64,000 nucleotides of DNA from Allacma fusca (taxonomy: Eukaryota > Arthropoda > Collembola > Symphypleona > Sminthuridae), in NCBI GenBank assembly GCA_947179485.1, contig OX359247.1, forward strand, positions 44,179,131-44,243,130, given 5' to 3'. Made by a program: the position numbers and the translations under genes. The notes beneath the pieces were generated by a model that was not told the DNA's origin, made no database searches, and saw only the letters and a list, made by a program, of their open reading frames with translations. Shown piece by piece: positions 3,807 through 63,986 of this stretch (position 1 is the first letter of the stretch; every line of letters begins with the position of its first letter).

Positions 3807-6360
3807 AAACACTTTGTGGAAAAATTTTCTATACAATTGGGCAAAATTTTGGAAGATCTTCCCATAAAACCCATGTGAAATAAATAAATTTTCTGTTAAA
3901 ATAGGACCCATATTTTATGGCTACCATGTACAAAAATCCATTCGAGGGCGTTGAATGCCCGCAAAAATTAATTCCCACGGATCAAGTTCCTCCGAGGGAT
4001 TCCTCCAGCTCCCATAATGTAAATAAACGCCGACTCCTTCCACGAGAAGTTCTCCGGGGAAATGTAAATAATTGCGCAAATCTTGACCGAAAAAGCTCCG
4101 ACTCCAGGCCCTATTAGGCCACAGGCTCCTATAAGTACCACAAACTAACTATATCCCATTCCCCTTCAGCCCTCCCTACATGCATGTATTTAATTTATAA
4201 AGCCTCCCATCATTACTCTTTTCCAGGCGGGAATTTCTGGAATGAGGTGGTTTCTCAGAAAGGACGTGGTTTCATTTGGGAAATGGTAAAACATTCACAT
4301 CCGGAAATTTCCAGAGCTGTGGTCATTCCGCATCCCTGAAATTCCACGGATCCTATTTACCAAAACTTCTCAGCCCTTTAAAATATCCTCTTTCACAATT
4401 ATTCCACATATGCAAAACAAAAAGCACAGTCAGCACTCTCTTTATGAAAAACAAACTGACAAAAAGTTCAAATGTTACCTTAAATTCACTTATTTATTCA
4501 TAAATTTGTTTAAATTTTTTGGAGCCCAGGAATGGGTTTGAATAAAAATTTTTTACGAGAGAAACGTTTTTGCATTTTTTGAGGGTTTGTTATTACTGTA
4601 GTCCTAGGGACGACGCTATACCAGTAACTGTTTATGGAACCTCTGTGCAGGGGAGGAATGTCTGAAATGTTTCTCTCAACATTTGAATCCCATGGTATGA
4701 AACCACGGGCTATAAAATATATAAGGGGGATTTATGTCTACACGTGTGTACATATACATACATATGCATAGTTGCGTGCTGAGGGAAATTTCCCGTGTAA
4801 ATCAATTAAAGCATGTGATTAGGAAATAATTAGTCATGTTGGGTCGATATGTTTGCACAGGGCAGAGAGGAATTTAATTTCCCAAACCCTATCCCTCCAA
4901 TTTTTCCCTGAGCTAAAAAAAAACACTCGTCCCCAATTAGTACAAGAGACAAAGGGGATTTCCCCATTCATTTTGATTCCTGCCCGAAACCTGTCAAACA
5001 CTTTTAAAGGATTTCCTACATTTTTAATTTGAGGCATGTCCATGGGAAATTTTTGTAAATCCTTCATAAAATTTTACCCTTAATTTTAAAAAACAAAAAT
5101 GCGGGTGGCAGAAAATAGAGACGTCCTTGGTTTAAGGAAGCAAAATTTGGATGACAAAATATTTATTTGCGAAAAATAATCTTAAAATTTAGAATCAAAT
5201 TTTTTGTTTAAAATTTTTTTGAAGGCATATTTCTCTTGAATTTTTGGTAGTAGCAAATAATTCCAGGGGGTTAAAAGCTTTGAAAAAAAATTTCTCAAGT
5301 GGGCACAAATGATAAAAATCAAGACAGCATGGACGTAAAAGCTTGTTTGCAATAGAGGAAGCCTGAGCATTAAAGTGGGCTCTGGTGATAATGGTTTTAT
5401 AGAAAACCCGGAAATGGGGGTGTCAGCCCATTCGTAGGATTCGGTTTTAATGGAAGATGGAAAATCATTGGAGAATTTTGTATTATAGCTCAATTGTGTC
5501 TCACGTGAGGATTATAAGGGAAAGCGAAGTATATTTTTAGAGCCGGAGGTCCCTGGTAGTAAGAGTCAACTGTATGTATGTACATTGAAGGGTGGAGAGC
5601 ATAAGACACGGAAGTGGCGGAAATTGAATTGAAAGCACACGCTCCTGTTGCTCATTCGCTCTCTCACTCTCTTTCCTTGGAAAATCTTCCACACGTTTCA
5701 TAGCACTCTGCCCTCTTCACAAGACTCCTTTCACTCGCTTTCCCTTTTCCAAGCTTTTAAGGGGAAAGTGGATTTGTAACCTTAAACCTTGTGTGATGGA
5801 AGCCTTTTATAAAGGTTTAGAAAAAAATAGCCTGCAAACATGGCAAAATTGAAGACAAAAAACAACAAAGGGATTACAATTTTCTGAACATGTGTTACTG
5901 CGAATCAAATTTATTGCGAAGAAAATAATTTGAAATTTGACCAAAAATGGTTAAAATTTTGTTGAAGAAATTTGTAATAATGAAATAGTTTATGAGAGAT
6001 CTCATTCGATTTTATAAAATTACGGGATCAAATATTTCCACGGAAAAAATTAATAGAAAATTAAGGGAAAGTTTGGAAAATTTAGGAAATTGAATTCCAA
6101 GGAAAATAAAAATTATTTGACCTTTTTTGAATTAAAAAAAAACAAACAAAAATGAGTGGTAAAATATTTACGTGGAAAAAAGGTAATAGAAGTGGAATTT
6201 AAATGTAAATAAAGTTTTGCAATTCTGCGGAGTATGAAAAATTGGGCATTTTGTGCAAGAAAGTGCAAGATATTTTGGGCAAATATTTTCAACGGGAAAA
6301 AAGTGAAAATTTTAAAGTTTTTGGATAGATTTTGACTGGTGATTTTGTTAATGTTTACAG
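3807..6360. other. Non-coding DNA before exon 1
   Basis: AT-rich with no supported exon. An ATG frame at 3917 (MATMYKNPFEGVECPQKL...) has GT sites only in phase 0, which does not fit exon 1. Degenerate TIR-like pieces occur near 4595 and 5560. The last 300 bp are A-rich, with the exon 1 acceptor at the end. Confidence 0.5.
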
Positions 6361-6540
6361 TTTTGATGTGGAAAATGGAGCAGCCGGTCGGAGTCCGTTG
6401 GAGGGAGGTGGAGCGCCATCTCCCGGCCTGGTCCTGCAAGCACAGCCGCCCAGACGAGAGTCGTTTCTCTATCGATCTGACTCTGACTTTGACATGTCAC
6501 CCAAATCCATGTCCAGGAATTCATCCATTGCTTCGGAAGG
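6361..6540 (+). CDS. dnc: PDE4/dunce exon 1 of window: first half of UCR1
   Basis: Acceptor tttacag, donor GG|gtgagc. The exon enters in phase 2 (its first T completes a codon) and leaves in phase 2 (GG plus the A of exon 2 gives Gly). It encodes [31 protein letters not shown] and [14 protein letters not shown], the signature of UCR1. In the family, RRES carries the Ser phosphorylated by protein kinase A, which activates long PDE4 forms; here that Ser codon is 6461-6463. Between GRSPL and SPGL the vertebrate segment is replaced by a short Gly-rich stretch. An in-frame ATG at 6332, ten codons upstream of Phe-Asp-Val, could only be used by a transcript that starts in the intron and does not use this acceptor. 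The preceding exon is not certain; a candidate lies at 3022-3354. Confidence 0.97.
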
Positions 6541-24980: not shown

Positions 24981-25082
24981 ACATGGAGATGACCTTATTG
25001 TGACCCCTTTCGCGCAAATTCTCGCCAGTCTCAGAAGCGTCCGGAATAATTACATCACCCTCACCCAAGTCTCGACGCATCG
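24981..25082 (+). CDS. dnc: PDE4/dunce exon 2: second half of UCR1
   Basis: Acceptor ttcccag, donor CG|gtaagt. Phase 2 in, phase 2 out. It encodes [20 protein letters not shown] followed by RNN and a variable tail ending STH. This is the part of UCR1 that, in mammalian PDE4, contacts UCR2 in the autoinhibited dimer. The 102-bp exon follows an 18.4 kb intron and is succeeded by a 3 kb intron. It sits between two arrays of the same minisatellite family in opposite orientation (15.9-16.7 kb and 26.0-26.4 kb). A candidate alternative first exon (25170-25293) starts 87 bp after its donor, and another (19349-19551) would splice into it in phase. Confidence 0.97.
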
Positions 25083-25169
25083 GTAAGTATTTTCAAATTT
25101 TCAAATTTCCCGCCCTTTTTATTCCTACAATTTTTCCTAATAGAATAATTTTATTATGTAAACTTGGAC

Positions 25170-25293
25170 ATGGCGACAGTGATCAAGGGCGTTTTCCGAT
25201 ACTTAAAACTTGCTTTGTCAAAAATAGACAAAAACATGGGCTCTCTGGACTCGCTCCCCCTTAAAATAATAAATACGCAGACAAAAGAGCAAC
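25170..25293 (+). CDS. Candidate alternative first exon: UCR1-less short PDE4
   Basis: A frame of 57 codons starts at ATG 25170 in a good context (ggacATGG). After 41 codons and one base it meets CAAC|gtgagg, leaving in phase 1. Exon 4 accepts phase 1 and exon 3 does not, so the natural product skips exon 3 and reads ...[16 protein letters not shown], entering UCR2 where vertebrate short PDE4 forms do. The peptide starts MATVIKGVFRYLKLALSKID, which can form a basic amphipathic helix, then KNMGSLDSLPLKIINTQ. Codon choice and composition look like coding sequence rather than the flanking repeats. It begins 87 bp after the exon 2 donor. I do not recognise this N-terminus in another species. If not spliced, the frame stops at 25341-25343. 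Confidence 0.5.
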
Positions 25294-25974
25294 GTGAGGA
25301 ATTGGAGTTAAAGACGCCGCATTTGCATGAGGGATTTCAATAGAAATGCAAATGCGCATTCCTTAGGTCATTTACATGGAAATTACAAAAGGAAGAGAAA
25401 CGTTTCGGAGCAAGTCCATTTACAAGAACGTTTAGAACCTCACGTGCTTTTTTCTCTCTCGTTGAATATGTCCATAAGTCGCATATAAGTATGTCAGTCA
25501 GTCTGTGTGTATATATCCCTGTACAGTTCAATACATGGGCGTACATATAAGTCAACTACGTACTATTCCTCCACATTTCGTCATCCTGTCTTGAACATTA
25601 CTTTTATTTTTATTCCTTGCAAAAACCTCGTGACTCATTATTTACATGCCCGTAAATCCTCGTTCCTCAACACATGACTTTGACTGTGGAGCCCAATCCA
25701 TATGTACGGACCCACGGTGTCATAATTGCCTAAGGACGTAAAATTAGACACAAAAGCGTCCGTAAAGGATCTAAACACGACACTCAATTTTAATAGGGAG
25801 GTAAAATATGCTAAAAATACTCCGGAATCCCTTTGTTAGTCAAATAGTAGGCAATTTTCGAGCTGTTTACGAGCAGAAGGTGGCAAGTCAGTTTTGTTGT
25901 TTAGGGCGACAAAAATATCATACTCAGGGAGGCATCCCGTCCGTGGAGAGGCAAAATGGTCCATAACCGTCTAT

Positions 25975-26475
25975 TTACAATTTTGCTAAACACAAATTGG
26001 TCTGTGTGCATTTTTGCTAAAAGCAAAAGGGTCTAAATGCATTTTTACTAAAAGAAATTTTTGTCAAAAGCAAAAGGGTCTAAATACATTTTTACTAAAA
26101 GAAATTTTTGCCAAAAGCAAAATGGTCTAAATGCATTTTTACTAAAAGCATTTTTACCAAAAGCAAAAGGGTCTAAATACATTTTTACTAAAAGAAATTT
26201 TTGCCAAAAGCAAAATGGTCTAAATGCATTTTTGCTGAAAGCAAAATGTTCTAAATGCATTTTTGCTGAAAGCAAAATGTTCTAAATGCATTTTTACTAA
26301 AATCAAAAGGGTCTAAATGCATTTTTACTAAAAGCAAAAGGGTCTAAAAGCATTTTTACCAAAAGCCAAAGGTTCTAAATGCATTTTTGCAAAAAGCAAA
26401 ATGCTTTACTTGCAAGCCAAAAAAAATGGGACTGGCCTGTTTCCCCTTATGTAATAAAATTGCATATAGACCATT
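25975..26475. repeat. Minisatellite family X, reverse orientation
   Basis: Units such as gcaaaatgttctaaatgca and gcaaaatggtctaaatgc, with spacings of 31 to 50 bp and higher-order alternation. A 19-nt core, tgcatttagaacattttgc, from the 16 kb array is its exact reverse complement. One stray forward unit sits at 26452-26480. Both strands show short pseudo-frames across it. Confidence 0.92.
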
Positions 26476-27490
26476 TTGCATTTAAAAACTGCAGACTATT
26501 TTTCCCCGTCACAGACGCTACGCACCTGCAAGAGAAAAATTAACACTGTCATAAATAGAGATCAAATGCTTTACCAGCCCTGCAGATAACATGCGGTGCA
26601 TTATTTAGGGAGCCCCCATTACTAAAACAAGGTTAATAATTTCAAGTCATACACTATGGGAAAAATACTGTGGGAAGTCATAAATGTAAATTCGTATGAT
26701 TTCAGCCCTACAGAATAATACTGAAAGGTTTCCTTCTTGTAAATTAAATTCAAGTAAAAAAATATTTTAATTACGAACGTGGCGTTTGTAAGCAGATTTT
26801 TCCTGAATGGCGTTGAAGTGAGACAATTTAAATTGCAGTCAATAAAGTATCCTGATGGGCTCAAACCATCTCTCTGTCAATATTGATGCTAGAAAAATAA
26901 AAATATTTATTTAGAAAAGAGAAGCATTTGAAAAGGAGTAGATAAAAAAAAATCAATATGTTATTGAGCCGTAATTCATTGAATGGTTGATTTTGACAAG
27001 AGTGAGTCATAAAATGAGGAAATAAATGACGTCAAATGATTTACAAGGTTTTTTTTACAGACTACTTGTGTAAGTGAATGGGAAGAAACGGGATAATAAT
27101 TCAAGTGTGAATTGATCTGACTCATCCCACTTGAAATATTCGCACGCTCCCTCCGACCACACCAACTATCAGTATATACATATGAAAAAAAAACTAGTCT
27201 GCGGTTTTTGGAACTCATCCATTAATTAGGGCAATGTCACATCCCCTCAAAACCTGGAAAGAGTCATAGGTGCATCCATACGTGATTACGTAATAAATGT
27301 CATCTCTTAAAAAAATTTCCCACCATATTTTTTCCCAATATATTTTCCCCCGCAGAGATTTTTTTAATAAACGGTAATTTCTGCGAAAAATGTATCAAAT
27401 TTCAAAAAAATTATCAAAATTTTATGTGGACATTTCTACTGTAAGATTAATCGTTTCGTGTGAAATTTACCTACTGCAAATGCATAATAA

Positions 27491-27513
27491 AATTATTATT
27501 ATTATTATTATTA
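27491..27513. repeat. (TTA)n microsatellite
   Basis: Seven ATT units in a row inside intron 2. Confidence 0.95.
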
Positions 27514-28087
27514 GCTATGAATAATATAGGATTTGAGATTTGGGTCAAGGGAAAAATTGAGGCAGGATATGAAAAAACAAGGGTGAATAAATCCATTGGG
27601 CACTTCCAGACACTAGCCTTGGGAAGCTTACGAGGAAATTAGGAGGAAACCCATGAGAAATTTCAAGTCTAGAGAAGGAAGTATTAGGAAGAATTAATTT
27701 TATTTATTTTATAAGTCATTATACCCTCGTAGCTTTTAAATCCTCAGTTTTAGTTCCTCAATGCTTTGTAAAGGCTCATCTCAGAGAATAAGGTTTGTGC
27801 GCATAAATTTAAATTCTTAAGAGTTAATGGGTAAGAAAATTCTAGTGAAATCTCCTTGTGAATATCGTCCTTGCCGGAGCATTGACTCTATTCAAGGATC
27901 AAAGAAAATGTTGTAAATAAAATTAAAATTTACAACCCTAAATAAATCTACAAAAATTTTTTTCGGAAGGATACAGTATTTTAGTAAGGGAATTTTTCTC
28001 AACCCTTTTAAAGATTGGGGCTGCTGAGGAAAAATTATTTTAAAATTCTATGTTTTCTATGTCTAAATTTTTTCTCTAATAACGCAG

Positions 28088-28146
28088 GTCCAGAAGATCT
28101 TCTCAATCAGCGAGTGGACCGAGTCCGCAGACGAAACCAGCCGGAG
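28088..28146 (+). CDS. dnc: PDE4/dunce exon 3: linker between UCR1 and UCR2
   Basis: Acceptor aacgcag, donor GGAG|gtaaaa. It enters in phase 2 (CG+G gives Arg) and leaves in phase 1. It encodes SRRSSQSASGPSPQTKPAG, a Ser/Pro/Lys-rich linker. The same low-complexity style, with an SRR start, stands in this place in Drosophila dunce as I remember it. The exon is only 59 bp, so it rests on position, phase and splice sites more than on strong conservation. It can be skipped only by a transcript entering exon 4 in phase 1, which the candidate first exon at 25170-25293 would do. Confidence 0.9.
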
Positions 28147-28398
28147 GTAAAATTTTTATATATTTTTTTACTTTATTGCCCCATTTTGAAAAAATGGCAT
28201 TTTTTTGAAAATTGATGAAAAATTGGAGTATAAAAATATTTTATGGTCCGAAGCGCTCTGTAAATTTTTGAGTGAGATATTTCTGTGTGTGTTTGTGGAA
28301 GAGCGAGGGATTAAATGGGGAAAGTCACAGGAGAAAGAGGATTTTTTTTCTGAGGGAAAGTGCATATGATTAATGTATGTCCGTGTGTGGATTTCCAG
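28147..28398. other. Intron 3 (252 bp)
   Basis: A short intron between exons 3 and 4 with no feature other than its splice sites. Confidence 0.95.
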
Positions 28399-28511
28399 AT
28401 GAGCAATTCACAAAATTGGCCCTGGAGACTCTGGATGAGTTGGATTGGTGCTTGGATCAGTTGGAAACCATTCAAACGCATAGGAGTGTGTCAGACATGG
28501 CAACATCCAAG
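28399..28511 (+). CDS. dnc: PDE4/dunce exon 4: start of UCR2
   Basis: Acceptor atttccag, donor AAG|gtgcgt. Phase 1 in (G+AT gives Asp), phase 0 out. It encodes [20 protein letters not shown] followed by [17 protein letters not shown], the near-invariant first part of UCR2. In the family this helix carries the residues that dock on UCR1 and help cover the active site. Vertebrate short PDE4 isoforms (4B2, 4D1) begin just before this block, so it is a natural entry point for UCR1-less transcripts. The intron before it is just 252 bp and the one after it is 21.4 kb. Confidence 0.97.
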
Positions 28512-45328: not shown

Positions 45329-46937
45329 GGAAAAGAACACACGTTCAGAAACACACCTATATACAATACGGCTTTCATTGAAATATAACCAGTTCAGATT
45401 TCGCTTGAAACCATATATCTACTACAATCTACAGAAGAGCTCAAGACTTATTATCTTCGTTTTAGCACTACAGACAGTCTCATGTCCATGTGCAAGCATT
45501 GACTCCCTCTCGTCATAAAAACATTGTGCTCCTCAGTATATAGTCAGAGGACTTCAAGCTGATACTCTCCTCACACAGACATGGTGTGTCCTGGTTGTAG
45601 TAATATCCATTGTAATTATGTGTGCACATAATAGAGACAGTCATCTGTTGAGCACTGCACCCCAGAGCCGTTTGTTATCATCCATACTCACCTATAAAAT
45701 CCCCTCAACTTGAACAATCTCTGGTCATAAGTACCACTGACACCTTAAAGAGTGGAGTTTCCTCCCGAGAGAATTTTTTTCTCATTTGTTACCAAAAATC
45801 AAACCAAAGAGTAATAATAATAATACTTCTCATCCCAAACATTTAACCCAATTGTAAAAAAAAAAAAGTTACGGAAGGAAAAAATAAGGACGTGATTACA
45901 GACAGTAATTATTATTACTGGGCAATTTAAATTAAATTTGTGCCGGACTTATCTTCAAAATTTTATCCTCCCAGCAGTGTCCATTTAACAACAGTGAAAT
46001 CTCCTCAGATTTTTATTCTGAGGAACTCTCCCTGAGGGATTTAATTTAATTTTGTGAGAATTTTGAAGAACAATTTCAAGGGACGATAAATCCTTGAGCG
46101 AACACATTTCCTGAGAATTTTGTAATTTTCAGAGGAAGAATAACTTTGAAATAATTTGTTGGAAAAAGGAAATTTTTGCAAAGTGGACAATTTCGTTCGA
46201 ACAAATTCATGAGAAGGAAATTACAGGGAATTTTGAGCCAATTGTAAATAAATCCAGTGAACGTGCCATTAGATAAAGAGCTGGGACTGATTTGAGGCTC
46301 TCCAGAGAGATTCCAAGTGAAGTGCTGGATTGGGAAGGGAGAGCTCTGAAGCAGAACTGAATTTTACAGGGAGACCTGGAAGGACGTAGCGTATATATAT
46401 AATTATATAATTATAATTATATAGTCCTATTGTAATCAGTATACTCTCCTGTATTAAATTACAATGCTAAATCAGCCCGTCTCAAAGGACATTAGCATTA
46501 GCACAGAGTTGAGGCCTAACTAATTACAGAGATTTTACATGACCCTAAATATTTACCCCTCTCCAGCCTGAGGTACATATCCCTCTCGGAATCCATACAC
46601 ACAGTGGAATTTTCCTGAATTTTTAATCACTTGGAAATCTCCCGTCCGCTCCGCATTGATTAGGGGATATTGGGATTACTAAAAAGGAATCCGTAATTAG
46701 ATCCCTCAAAAGACTCACATCTCATCTCTCTCTCTGTTTTGAATATATCAATACACAAGTTCTACATTCCACTCGGAGATACTCAAAATCCCTTGTTTGT
46801 ATACCTATACAAATAGTACGGGGACATTTACTCCCGTTACTGTAACACTACCTCTCAAAGTGAAAAGAATCTCAAAAGTGTTCCTCACTCCACGTTTTTT
46901 TTCTAACTTTGTTACAATTATAATTATTTTTCTAAAG

Positions 46938-46944
46938 TATAAAT
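46938..46944 (+). promoter_or_regulatory. Possible TATA box for the 47039 first exon
   Basis: TATAAAT lies 101 bp upstream of the candidate start codon, in an otherwise gene-free intron, followed by a short GC-richer stretch (ccggggagctg). TATA boxes are frequent by chance in AT-rich DNA, so this is only supporting context. Confidence 0.25.
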
Positions 46945-47038
46945 CCGGGGAGCTGTACTACATTCCCCCAGATCTTACGAATTTACATATGCATCTCTAT
47001 TTTTACTCCCCTGAGAGCCAAACCTTATAATAATTATC

Positions 47039-47203
47039 ATGGATCCAAATAACCGGCACAAGTCCACAAATAACAACAACAACGGGAAGAGAGTTGTGCA
47101 ACAAAGTAATATTTTCATTCAAGATAATAGCATTAGTGAGCTGGAGGCTTTGATAACCACTTTCCAACTTATTTTTTACTGGTTCCTCCTCATGGGACGA
47201 GAG
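47039..47203 (+). CDS. Candidate alternative first exon: super-short PDE4 with hydrophobic N-terminus
   Basis: An ATG at 47039 opens exactly 55 codons that end at GAG|gtgagt in phase 0, the phase needed to join exon 5 (FKRML). The peptide begins MDPNNRHKS, has a polyasparagine run and QQSNIF, then an acidic turn SELEAL and a hydrophobic stretch ITTFQLIFYWFLLMGRE. Mammalian PDE4A1 has this layout: a private exon coding for a membrane-inserting helix joined directly to FKRML. A TATAAAT box at 46938-46944 could serve it, with a 5' UTR of roughly 70 nt. Seen: ATG, frame, phase, donor, hydrophobicity. Inferred: use as a first exon. Polyasparagine and intronic location leave room for coincidence; there is no transcript evidence here. 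Confidence 0.6.
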
Positions 47204-48628
47204 GTGAGTTTTTTTTTTCTCTTCAATTTTATTCCTAAAAATAAAACTGTCTTCCAGAGTTGAGGCCCCACTCTATGTAGCTCTGCTTACTTTCTCCCAA
47301 TTATTTCCATGGAGGGGTTTTGGAAGGGAAAAGGAAGCCCGGCAGATTTAATTTCATTAGATTCCGCACTCAAGTCCATCATCCCTCATCATTCCCTCCA
47401 CTGATCTCACACAGTAGGGATCCAATTCCTTTTTAACAATGTGGGTTGGTTTCCCTATAATAATAATTATTATTATATATGTACATACATATACGTACAT
47501 ATGCACTCAACAGTCTCCCTTATCTTTCTGTCACTTCCTCCCATTTGGAACTCAAACAGTCTAATGGAGGAAGCTCAGTTCCTCTTCCTCTATGGTTTTA
47601 GCATCAAAGGACTTTTTTTTCCCTTTAGTAGAATAATTATTACTGTTTTAAAATTAGATGCCCAGTTTGTGGAAAATTATTTTTGGTTTTTATTCCCATC
47701 ACTCCATCCTTCCCCATTGTAGTTGAGGGATAATGGAATTTGACTGAGTCCAATTAATTCTTAAATGTCAACAGGACTTTGATTATTTTGTGAGCGTCAG
47801 TCAAGTACCATATAAAAATTATCCGTTAGTGTTGATTGAGGAGAGGAGGATGATGAGGCAGGGAAATCCGTTTGTGTGAGGTAATGTTTTTTTTTGCGAG
47901 GGTAGATACACAATACAATAGTTGTATGCAGCTCCAAAGGGATTGACTGGGACAGATGATCATGCTAATAAAATTTATTACCAAAACATTATCTTTTATT
48001 GCACATCCAGGAGCTGGGGAAGGGTTACATAATTCCGGCTTATGTACCCAAGCCCCTGCTGGGACTTATAGGAGCTCATAGGGGAATTAAATAGGGGAAT
48101 TAAAGTGTGCATTAAATAGTATTAAATATAGCTACTGACAGTTATTTGACCTCAGAATAACTTGACTCAGCGCTATACGGTCTCTGCCTCATCCCAAGCC
48201 TTCCCAAGTTTACAACTGGAAACTGCTGTGGGATCAAATTATTAATTACGAGAATCAAAAATATGCTGTTAGCACTAACTCCAAGACTAATACAACCAAT
48301 AAAGATACAAGGATTTGAAAGAAATGTGCCGTCAGCTTGTTTTACTAGAATCAAAAGATTTACGTCAAAATTGAGCACCTGGTTAAACTTTAGAATTTAA
48401 ATGTAGAAAAAAAAAACGTTACGTAATTATCATATGATTCTCAAGTAGATTTTTTTCAAGTTTATATTTTGTGTACTGAGAATTCCCTGACGGTGATAGG
48501 TACATACATAATTATGTATCTATATTATACATACATTGGGAAAATGTACTTGGGAGGAATTGACTGACGCGTTTTTTTTCCAAGGAAAAATTTTCTACAA
48601 GCCAGATATAAAATGAGGGTGTGTGGAA

Positions 48629-49888: not shown

Positions 49889-49982
49889 TTCAAAAGGATG
49901 TTAAACAAGGAACTAAGCCATTTCTCTGAGTCGTCCAAATCGGGCAATCAAATCTCCGAGTATATCTTCACTACATTTTTAG
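49889..49982 (+). CDS. dnc: PDE4/dunce exon 5: core of UCR2
   Basis: Acceptor ttttttttccag, donor TTAG|gtaagg. Phase 0 in, phase 1 out. It encodes [20 protein letters not shown] and [11 protein letters not shown]. This is the most conserved piece of UCR2; the family uses it to gate the catalytic pocket. In mammals, super-short PDE4A1 joins its private membrane-binding first exon directly to this FKRML block, and three candidate first exons in the preceding intron (42463, 47039, 48629) end in the phase that allows the same here. Upstream of the acceptor the reading frame stays open back to an ATG at 49742. Confidence 0.97.
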
Positions 49983-52798
49983 GTAAGGATCCTGTTTTTT
50001 TTTCTCCCTTTATGGTAACTTTTTACAATGCAAGAGCAGCACTTGAGAGAGAGAGTCAAGTGTTCTTTCTATTGGGGCAATTCATATCATTAAGCATAAG
50101 GTCAGAGGTCAATTTGCTAACAAGGACTTGGGAGCCGACTCTCCTGTTTTGGACGTATCTACATACATGTGCATATGTATACATTATGTAGAAACAAGTA
50201 TAATGGAACTACCCAATCAAAAGAAAGTATCAATATCATTAGATGCTGAGGCCGTAAGGATACATACAATCTAGTGGCTGATATTCTCCTCTTGTTTTCT
50301 TTCTCCCTCATAAAATTTGAGGGTGAATGGGGCAAGTGCACGTCTCTACTCCTAACAATAAGTACATACATACATGTACATATAGGGAGATAGTACTTGT
50401 GGAGGAAAACAAAGCTATCGAATTTCCACATTCTCAATGATGATGAGGAGGAGGAAGAGGCCCGAGGATGCGGAGACCAAGGCAAGGTATAGATAATTAC
50501 ATCTACACTCAAGGGTTGAGACGCACAAGGACAAAAAAATGAGCCGTTAGAATTCAAGATCACGTCTATGGAATTTTTTCCCATCGGAAACAAAATTACC
50601 TTTTTTTTACGTCCTATACCCCCCGATCCCTTATACATTCTGTCCACAAATTAACTCCAACTTCCTCTCTGAGCATATCTAAAAATCTAGAATTTCCTTG
50701 GAATAGAACCTTTTCTTATTTCCATACGAAAGGAGCAAATTTATAGAGCCTTGAGAAAATGTACGAAAAAAAACTAGGATTGCATTTTCTCATAATGAAT
50801 GTAATTTTCGGAGGGACTTTTAATAAGAAGAAATGTGGGAAATATATGAGTTTTTCTCATCCCAGAAAATTGCCATCTCCAGTTCCTTGAAAAATTCAAA
50901 CGTTTTCCGTGCTAAAAAAAATAATAATAATACTCTCTGTAATATTTGTCATTATTTTTGAAATCCTTGGGACCTCCCACACTTTTCCCCCAACAACTTT
51001 TGGGGCTTAAATACGGGAGGGTATTTGTTGCAATGCCGGAATGCATTTATGGGTTTATTTACTAGGAGATTTCTTGTTGGAGCAATTCCCACATAAGTGC
51101 AGTGGGGTTCAGGACAGGACATGATGCACATAAGAGGCTGCGAATGATGCATTTTTTTCTCATGGGGCTATTAATATTCCCTCAAGTTTGTTATACAATA
51201 GGGACTAGTAGACAATACTTACGTAAAAAATTCCTGGGATTGCAACAGCTATAGTTGTCTGGCCTGGATTTGTCTAATGCAAAAATACAATACGGGAAGT
51301 GTGAGGGATAATACTGTACTAGAAGGGGACATTTTGGGGATAATCTTGTCCCTATAGGGATCTATGTATGTATACATATATACTGGATATGGGTGTATGT
51401 ATGTATGTAGTAAAGTTACATAAGAATTTTGACTGTGACTGGTCAAAGCCCAGCCTGGAGTATGAGCTATGGGAATGGTTAATGTCTCGCCAGTTTATAC
51501 TCCAAGTCTAATCCTACAAGATACATTCGTCAACAAGGAGAATAAACGACTGTGCTACTTTCCCCGTCAGCCCACAATAATCCTGATGACGCCTCCACTT
51601 ACTCTAACCACACTGGTGATTGTGTACTTAAAGATTTTACCTCCACGGCCCTTTTTTTTCTCTCTCTCTCTCCCCAATTCCCAGAGTTTGTCAACATCCT
51701 CATCTCCTCTCTCTCTCTCTCTCTGCCTCGTTCCGAGAGGAAGCCGAGCTGAGAGAGAATTTAAGGTGAGAGAGGGAGGAAAGTGAGGATGTATGTACCT
51801 GCCATAGATTCAACGTATACAGTAGGAGTAAAAAATATATTTTAGGTTTGTTCCTTATAAAAAAAACCTCCCTGGAGGGATATGCTTGTAGGGGTAGATA
51901 CTTATATACATAAAGTATGTACATATAGGTCTGACTCTAACTATAGAGCAAATGAGATTTTGTGAGGGAGTCTGGACTCAAGAACTCCCTCAAAATTTGG
52001 ATATAAATACTGATTTTTCAAGTGGGTCTTTCTTTTTCCTTCTCCTCCTCCATTTTCCCTTCTTCTTTTTCTTCTTCCTCTCCTTCACTCCTCTGCTGCT
52101 TTTGGATTTTTTCCCACACAAGTCCTCTATAATTTGGGGCTTTTGTATATCTACCTATTCACTTTCACTGGGTGGGTAGTATTTTTTCTCTTCCTTTACA
52201 GGATATTTACTTTCACTGGGTATGTCTATACTTGTGGGAAATTTGCTTTCACTTTTTGTATCTATCTACATATCTACTTGTATAAAAGATATTCATAGGG
52301 ATAGATTTTTTTTCTCGCTTGAAGTGTTTGTGCATACGTATTACGTACATATGTATGTGTAATAAGAAAATTTTACTTTCACATAAGGATCAATATAAGA
52401 TCCTTGATGGGGGATATATTCTAGTCCCATGATTTTTTTTTCCTGGGAGGAGTTACAAATAAATGGTTTGGTCCTATACTAGTGCTGTATAGTGTGACTA
52501 CGTGAATTTTCTCTGCAGATCGTATATTTTTTCCAGTGAATTCTCCTCTGCGTGAGGGTAGGCTTGGGATAGCTGGAGGTCTCCCTGAGAATAGTAGTTT
52601 ATGCATGAGGAACGTGATATTTATTTTTCTCTTCTTTCTCTGGAAATCAGAGTGGTAATAGTACGAGAGAAAAATCTTTTTTTCCAACAATTAATGAAAT
52701 TGGAAGGAATTGATCTCGCCCCATGGAGATACTACAGGCACAAAACCTAACCACTCTCATTCTATTTTCCCTCCTTTCTTTTCCAGCTGTAGAGAAAG

Positions 52799-61198: not shown

Positions 61199-61446
61199 AT
61201 AAACAACAAGAATTAGATCTTCCATCATTGCGTATAGATGAGGTGGAACCGTTGGCGAAGCCCATCTCGGCGGCTGCCGCCAGTTGCCGGAAGCGAGCTT
61301 TGCTGGGCTCTCAGATTGTCAATGCCGCCAAGCCCATGTCACATATAAGTGGGGTCAAGAAGCCCCTTACGCATGTCAATAGTATCCCCGCTGACAAGAT
61401 CCCAAAGTATGCCGTCGAGTCGCCTTGTGAGGAAGAGCTTGGAGAG
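61199..61446 (+). CDS. dnc: PDE4/dunce exon 6: end of UCR2 and linker to the catalytic domain
   Basis: Acceptor ccctacag, donor GAG|gtatcc. Phase 1 in (G+AT gives Asp), phase 0 out. It encodes DKQQELDLPSLRIDEVEP, then an Ala/Lys/Arg-rich variable stretch (about residues 19-48), then MSHISGVKKPLTHVNSIP and a tail ending EEELGE. The first block matches the arthropod form (DLPSLR) rather than the vertebrate VEIPSP. MSxISGVKK is the conserved start of the linker before the catalytic domain. At 248 bp this is the longest exon in the window, and its base composition is visibly more GC-rich than the surrounding intron. Confidence 0.96.
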
Positions 61447-61612: not shown

Positions 61613-61711
61613 CTTCTCGAGAGTGTGGACAGGTGGGGATTAGACATTTTCCGGCTGGCAGAACTAACCAATCGCCGGCCATTGACTGCAGTTGTTTACG
61701 CTATTTTTCAG
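61613..61711 (+). CDS. dnc: PDE4/dunce exon 7: N-terminal helices of the catalytic domain
   Basis: Acceptor aatttccag, donor CAG|gtaaac. Phase 0 in and out, 33 codons. It encodes LLESVDRWGLDIFRLAEL then TNRRPLTAVVYAIFQ, matching the family pattern WGLxIF...NRPLTxxxYxIFQ at the beginning of the catalytic domain. The intron before it is only 166 bp and the next is 2.1 kb, so this pair of exons forms a compact cluster after the 11.2 kb intron. A transcript entering here would lack all UCR sequence. Confidence 0.96.
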
Positions 61712-63821: not shown

Positions 63822-63986
63822 GAAAGAGATTTGATGAAGACATTCAAAATCCCGCCAAAGACTCTGGTGACATTTTTAATGACGCTGGAGGACCACTATG
63901 TTGCGGACGTGCCGTATCATAATAGTATCCATGCAGCGGATGTTGCTCAGTCCACTCATGTCCTCTTGAACTCGCCGGCTCTAGAG
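63822..63986 (+). CDS. dnc: PDE4/dunce exon 8: catalytic domain with general-acid His and first metal ligand
   Basis: Acceptor tttttgtag, donor GAG|gtaaaa at the window's end. Phase 0 in and out, 55 codons. It encodes [30 protein letters not shown] and [19 protein letters not shown]. In PDE4 structures the His of Y-H-N protonates the leaving group and the His of I-H-A-A-D binds the catalytic zinc; here these codons are 63918-63920 and 63930-63932. Both are present, so the enzyme should be active if the missing downstream exons keep the remaining His/Asp metal ligands. Confidence 0.97.

Follow-up and report, generated by a model that had tools for sequence, protein, structure and literature searches.

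Part of a PDE4/dunce gene is present on the forward strand of the 64-kb stretch of Allacma fusca DNA that was analysed (the window), as recognised in a tblastn search with a human PDE4D sequence as the query and by the reading of splice sites. In this way seven dunce exons were mapped; the window ends before the catalytic domain is complete (Table 1). The UCR2b exon begins directly after ttttttttttccag, with FKRML read in phase 0, and its peptide is identical at 27 of 31 positions to the Drosophila piece and at 22 of 31 to the human piece, in agreement with an arthropod origin. The intron that separates UCR2a from UCR2b (between 28511 and 49889) measures 21.4 kb, and it is within this intron that the candidate exon described below was found.

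Some observations can be made on the gene itself. UCR1 was mapped here in two exons whose peptides, ILASLRSV.. being that of the second, are contiguous, whereas three UCR1 exons are given for vertebrate PDE4 in a survey of this gene family (PMC2929239). Phase 2 at the end of the second UCR1 exon is followed by phase 1 at the start of UCR2a, so that direct joining leads to a stop, and given this mismatch there is probably an unlocated linker (LR1) exon within the intron at 25083-28398. The first UCR1 exon carries RRES, the motif of the PKA site, and the long forms should therefore be PKA-regulated, while a super-short form would not be. The donor at 61446, after ..CEEELGE (GAG/gtatcc), is very weak and with 0.5 bits the lowest among the seven that were mapped. 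In the intron downstream of UCR2b an ATG-open frame of 99 codons (51469-51765) runs to a donor of 6.5 bits in phase 0, but it cannot join in frame because the following exon requires phase 1; its S/L-rich translation suggests that it represents CT-rich low-complexity DNA.

Table 1. Dunce exons and the features around the candidate exon, in coordinates of the window.
Feature	Position	Strand	Remarks
UCR1 exon	6361..6540	+	peptide FDVENG...; would be absent from the super-short form
UCR1, second part	24981..25082	+	Pfam PF18100, 3.2e-09; would be absent from the super-short form
UCR2a exon	28399..28511	+	ends in phase 0; Pfam PF18100, 1.1e-13; its place would be taken by the candidate exon
TATA box, TATAAA	46938..46943	+	32 nt 5' of the initiator-like A
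Initiator-like CCCAGA (BBCABW)	46967..46972	+	putative transcription start at A 46970; alternatively a 3' splice site with the exon starting at 46972
Upstream ORF, 13 codons	46989..47030	+	weak context (catATGc); terminates 8 nt short of the main ATG
Candidate super-short first coding exon, 55 codons, MDPNNRHKSTNNNNNGKRVVQQSNIFIQDNSISELEALITTFQLIFYWFLLMGRE	47039..47203	+	ends GAG/gtgagt, phase 0
Predicted hydrophobic helix segment ALITTFQLIFYWFLLMG, residues 37-53	47147..47197	+	mean Kyte-Doolittle hydropathy 1.69
UCR2b exon (FKRML)	49889..49982	+	putative acceptor partner of the candidate
Exon after UCR2b, DKQQELDLPSLRIDE..	61199..61446	+	remainder of UCR2 and linker
Exon LLESVDRWGLDIFRLAELTNRRPLTAVVYAIFQ	61613..61711	+	dunce exon
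Start of the catalytic domain	63822..63986	+	matches PF00233 weakly (0.00022) and under the cut-off of that family

The candidate exon and its surroundings

The candidate frame, bracketed by the UCR2a and UCR2b exons, opens with an ATG at 47039 (atcATGg) that has a strong Kozak context, with A at -3 and G at +4, and it remains open up to the in-phase donor that follows its last base at 47203. An in-frame stop at 47012-47014 implies that it cannot extend further upstream. The frame ends in phase 0, the phase in which UCR2b starts, and the coordinates, frame and phase are as claimed in an earlier reading of this DNA (hereafter the sequence-only reading), which had described a frame of 55 codons that ends at GAG/gtgagt in the phase of UCR2b. 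Scored with a generic donor matrix that is not trained on the species, the candidate donor reached 7.9 bits versus 0.5-5.7 bits for the donors of the seven mapped exons. The 21.4 kb intron contains seven donors of at least 4 bits. The donor of the candidate is the strongest among these and the only one that is preceded by an ATG-open phase-0 frame of more than 3 codons; no other first exon above that length was found at the remaining donors of at least 4 bits.

Upstream of the ATG a TATA box and an initiator-like element were recognised, and the putative initiator A at 46970 lies 69 nt before the ATG. Combinations of TATAWA and BBCABW with a spacing of 29-33 nt occur 5 times on the forward and 10 times on the reverse strand of the 64 kb, so that 0.023 of such pairs would be expected in a stretch of 200 nt like the one that precedes the ATG. 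Four out of five definitions of the TATA and initiator pair detected it (0.022-0.052 expected in 200 nt), and with the strict TCAKTY definition of the initiator no pair was detected upstream of the candidate. The AG that precedes 46972 is acceptor-like (cccccag), and its score of 3.3 is not outside that of the seven real acceptors, which lie between -0.4 and 6.0. It competes with the reading of a transcription start, as it could reflect an upstream noncoding exon or use as a cassette.

The base composition of the candidate resembles that of the mapped exons, in the sense that a GC3 of 0.51 is obtained for its open frame, versus 0.42 and 0.27 for the alternative two frames, and one of 0.54 for the dunce exons. 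Within a set of overlapping open noncoding frames of 55 codons (n=1408), 6.7% reach the GC3 of the candidate and 1.9% its GC3 minus GC12, and its synonymous codon score is likewise equalled by 6.7% of the open noncoding frames. The codon bias of dunce is weak, with a leave-one-out codon score below zero in two of the seven real exons, and the coding potential of the candidate is for that reason only suggestive.

The predicted peptide and its comparison with known PDE4 forms

The first 30 residues of the peptide are polar and N-rich. The hydrophobic stretch that the sequence-only reading had noticed just before FKRML was confirmed in its hydropathy and overlaps the single helix, covering residues 14-52, that AlphaFold2 predicted from the single sequence. 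The overall mean pLDDT was 74.5 and the pTM 0.40, with pLDDT means of 90 for residues 31-40 and 96 for residues 41-50. The hydrophobic core of 15-17 residues is marginal for the spanning of a bilayer. The sum for bilayer insertion was -0.08 for the core of 15 residues, +0.77 for 17 and +2.9 for 19, and the interfacial partition sum was -8.4 kcal/mol for 15 residues, -8.2 for 17 (residues 37-53) and -6.8 for 19. Given these sums and the short core, a helix that lies at the interface or is partly inserted is more likely than one that spans the membrane completely. The earlier designation 'membrane helix' is plausible, but marginal where it implies that the bilayer is spanned. After joining, the basic FKRMLNK would directly follow the helix.

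No match to Pfam was obtained for the 55-residue peptide at E<=1, and the joined peptide of 86 residues matched PDE4_UCR over residues 43-86, with three further families below their cut-offs. The N-terminal peptide of PDE4A1, 1LOI, was not among the 5 hits that the joined 86-residue query gave at E<=10; a PDE4A1 query, used as a positive control, retrieved 1LOI at 6.2e-15. Relatives of the candidate were absent from the viral collection, and the prokaryotic collections gave a single tblastn match, in the sequence L001 of a Flavivirga genome (5001-5129; query residues 48-84, 47%). It was rejected as a relative and considered a chance match, because its 43 stop-free codons oppose a bacterial ORF of 408 amino acids (4316-5542) and the flanks in that frame hold stops. 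A repeat origin of the exon was rejected as well at the level of the window, as self-BLAST of 46500-47300 against the window produced only weak matches of 14-36 bases. TRF detected no tandem array inside the candidate exon, and the window contained no Rfam match at the gathering threshold and no tRNA.

PDE4A1 binds phosphatidic acid in response to Ca2+, a super-short apPDE4 exists in Aplysia and the dunce gene of Drosophila possesses several promoters. A broader comparison is offered by the survey mentioned above, which covers vertebrates and Ciona as the sole invertebrate and in which short and super-short forms were encountered primarily in tetrapods and mammals (PMC2929239). The super-short first exons of the vertebrate species examined there lie between UCR2a and UCR2b. 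According to the same survey, detection of the super-short N-termini of PDE4A was confined to species from pig to human, whereas PDE4B has super-short transcripts from teleosts onwards and the PDE4D6 exon is present in Takifugu and in tetrapods, up to primates; the super-short forms of the individual genes are argued to be independent in origin and to use the same junctions. The position and junction of the candidate exon are identical to those of PDE4B5 and PDE4D6 (PMC2929239).

The likeness to PDE4A1 (RD1) comprises a first exon between UCR2a and UCR2b for joining to FKRML, the lack of UCR1 and a membrane-seeking N-terminus, the joining and the last two features being predicted in the case of the candidate. 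The N-terminus of PDE4A1, whose TAPAS-1 segment is described as binding phosphatidic acid (PMC6022864), shows no detectable sequence similarity to the candidate and lacks a polar N-rich head. It has 22 unique residues versus 55, and is much less hydrophobic, with a best Kyte-Doolittle mean over 11 residues of 1.02 versus 1.86; PDE4B5 and PDE4D6 have 16 unique residues and are only mildly hydrophobic. The PDE4A1-like architecture proposed in the sequence-only reading is supported for the super-short layout at the canonical intron, but not for the sequence. The deep conservation of the PDE4A1 N-terminus that was offered there as one explanation finds no support, given the absence of 1LOI from the hits and the restriction of the PDE4A form in the survey.

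The short form of Aplysia apPDE4 combines a moderately hydrophobic N-terminus with a basic neighbouring region that is needed for stable binding to the plasma membrane (PMC6567041, PMC11810923). The single PDE-4 gene of C. elegans, likewise an invertebrate, gives rise to a number of isoforms with different N-termini (PMC12346295). No dunce isoform of an arthropod that is super-short or membrane-bound appeared among the matches listed in literature searches, and the excerpts of three papers (PMC5919781, PMC13095499, PMC6376954) contained nothing that bears on arthropod super-short forms.

Chance expectation and alternative readings

Considering the fact that 192 stop-to-stop frames of at least 50 amino acids occur over 40000-64000 on both strands, the open length of the candidate is in itself unremarkable. 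The combination of a donor of at least 4 bits with at least 15 codons is found for 8 frames in the whole window, four per strand, one of the forward frames being the true UCR2a exon; within this group only the candidate has a TATA and initiator pair within 200 nt upstream. When the intron was simulated with an order-4 Markov model, a donor of at least 7.8 bits with at least 55 codons was obtained in 13 of 2000, and a donor of at least 7.8 bits with at least 15 codons and a promoter (the pair within 200 nt) in 2 of 2000, but such tight limits overstate the case because they were chosen after the candidate was known. Under loose limits (donor of at least 4 bits and at least 15 codons) 1350 of the 2000 copies yielded a frame, and 28 did so when the promoter was added. 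In smaller runs the donor of at least 7.8 bits with at least 55 codons turned up in 10 of 600 copies of order 2 and in 3 of 600 of order 4; none of the 1200 remained when a hydropathy of at least 1.6 in the last 25 residues was added.

The most serious alternative is that the open frame is not expressed and arose by chance in a long intron rich in AT, followed by a cryptic consensus donor and with a hydrophobic end that is simply translated pyrimidine-rich intron. The ease with which simulated introns pass the loose limits is in line with this. A T-rich stretch indeed underlies the hydrophobic part, an equally hydrophobic end is found in 4.7% of a set of overlapping open noncoding frames (n=1003), and the 55-residue peptide has no Pfam match at E<=1. 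We nevertheless consider chance a possible but unlikely explanation, since the signals are individually uncommon (the donor with the length, the donor with the promoter and the GC3 minus GC12 value) and the exon falls in the one intron that is known for super-short first exons (PMC2929239).

Far less probable is a role as cassette or poison exon, in which 46972-47203 would be spliced after UCR2a (28511) and a premature stop would lower dunce output, or in which an in-frame insert of 62 codons would be included from an acceptor at 47018. The acceptors before 46972 and before 47016 (the latter scoring 1.4 and out of phase) are both within the real range, and the exon 46972-47203, when read from UCR2a, reaches a stop after 26 codons. 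However, AGs that score at least 2 amount to 195 of 3765 in the window, which makes such an acceptor not rare, and with -2.4 the score of the in-frame acceptor at 47018 is lower than that of any of the seven real acceptors. In addition, the ATG with its strong Kozak context, the length and phase of the frame, the TATA box and the GC3 signal would all have to be coincidences.

We give the least credence to a real super-short exon that starts at the internal, in-frame ATG of residue 52 (47192, MGRE), with a head of 4 residues without helix and the T-rich stretch as 5' UTR, for although truncated super-short PDE4 forms that begin at an internal methionine are mentioned in the survey (PMC2929239), the ATG at 47039 has the stronger context (there is a c at -3 of 47192) and the coding-like GC3 extends over the whole frame.

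A putative super-short dunce isoform and its meaning

Weighing these alternatives, we regard it as fairly probable that 47039-47203 is a real alternative first exon, giving rise to a super-short, UCR1-less dunce that is expressed and associates with membranes. The sequence with its frame and phase, the donor, the position, the promoter-like elements and the helix as predicted can be read directly; from these we infer that the exon is transcribed, spliced and translated, and that the product binds to a membrane and lacks regulation. In the proposed scheme 46970-47203 would be an alternative first exon at the position of exon '1b', under the control of its own internal promoter. Transcription would start near 46970, translation would begin at 47039 after a 5' UTR of around 69 nt with a short and weak upstream ORF, and 47203 would be spliced to 49889 in phase 0. 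The product would possess a unique N-terminus of 55 residues, consisting of the N-rich polar head and the hydrophobic helix, followed by the part of UCR2 that begins with FKRML and then by the linker and the catalytic domain. That such a form, if spliced so, would be without UCR1 and the first part of UCR2 and would keep everything from FKRML to the catalytic domain, follows from the exon order.

The predicted composition has consequences for regulation. RRES is the PKA site and dimerisation proceeds via both UCRs, according to an earlier report (PMC5526615). Lacking UCR1 and UCR2a, the product should not dimerise through UCR1/UCR2, and lacking UCR1 it could not be PKA-activated at RRES. The helix would hold the enzyme at a membrane, most likely in an interfacial or partly inserted state and aided by the basic FKRMLNK, and the enzyme held there would keep cAMP low beside that membrane. 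Such a two-part mechanism of helix and basic FKRMLNK would be Aplysia-like, the analogy with apPDE4 being its basis. On this evidence the candidate, if expressed, would work like a super-short PDE4, and its N-terminus would not be orthologous to that of PDE4A1. A more specific version, in which an arthropod has independently acquired an integral-membrane, UCR1-less dunce with a bilayer-inserting helix and an internal promoter at the UCR2a/UCR2b junction that vertebrates use, and which would represent convergence in the anchoring of a PDE4 that is not activated by PKA, appears distinctly doubtful.

We make no claim to the first super-short dunce of an arthropod, as the matches listed do not settle whether products of the Drosophila gene are super-short. 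If the proposed isoform is real, it would suggest that new PDE4 N-termini have repeatedly landed in the intron between UCR2a and UCR2b, and it would bear on whether the local, PKA-insensitive removal of cAMP at membranes evolved more than once. For dunce biology it would provide a candidate isoform that escapes mutations and knock-downs directed at the UCR1 exons.
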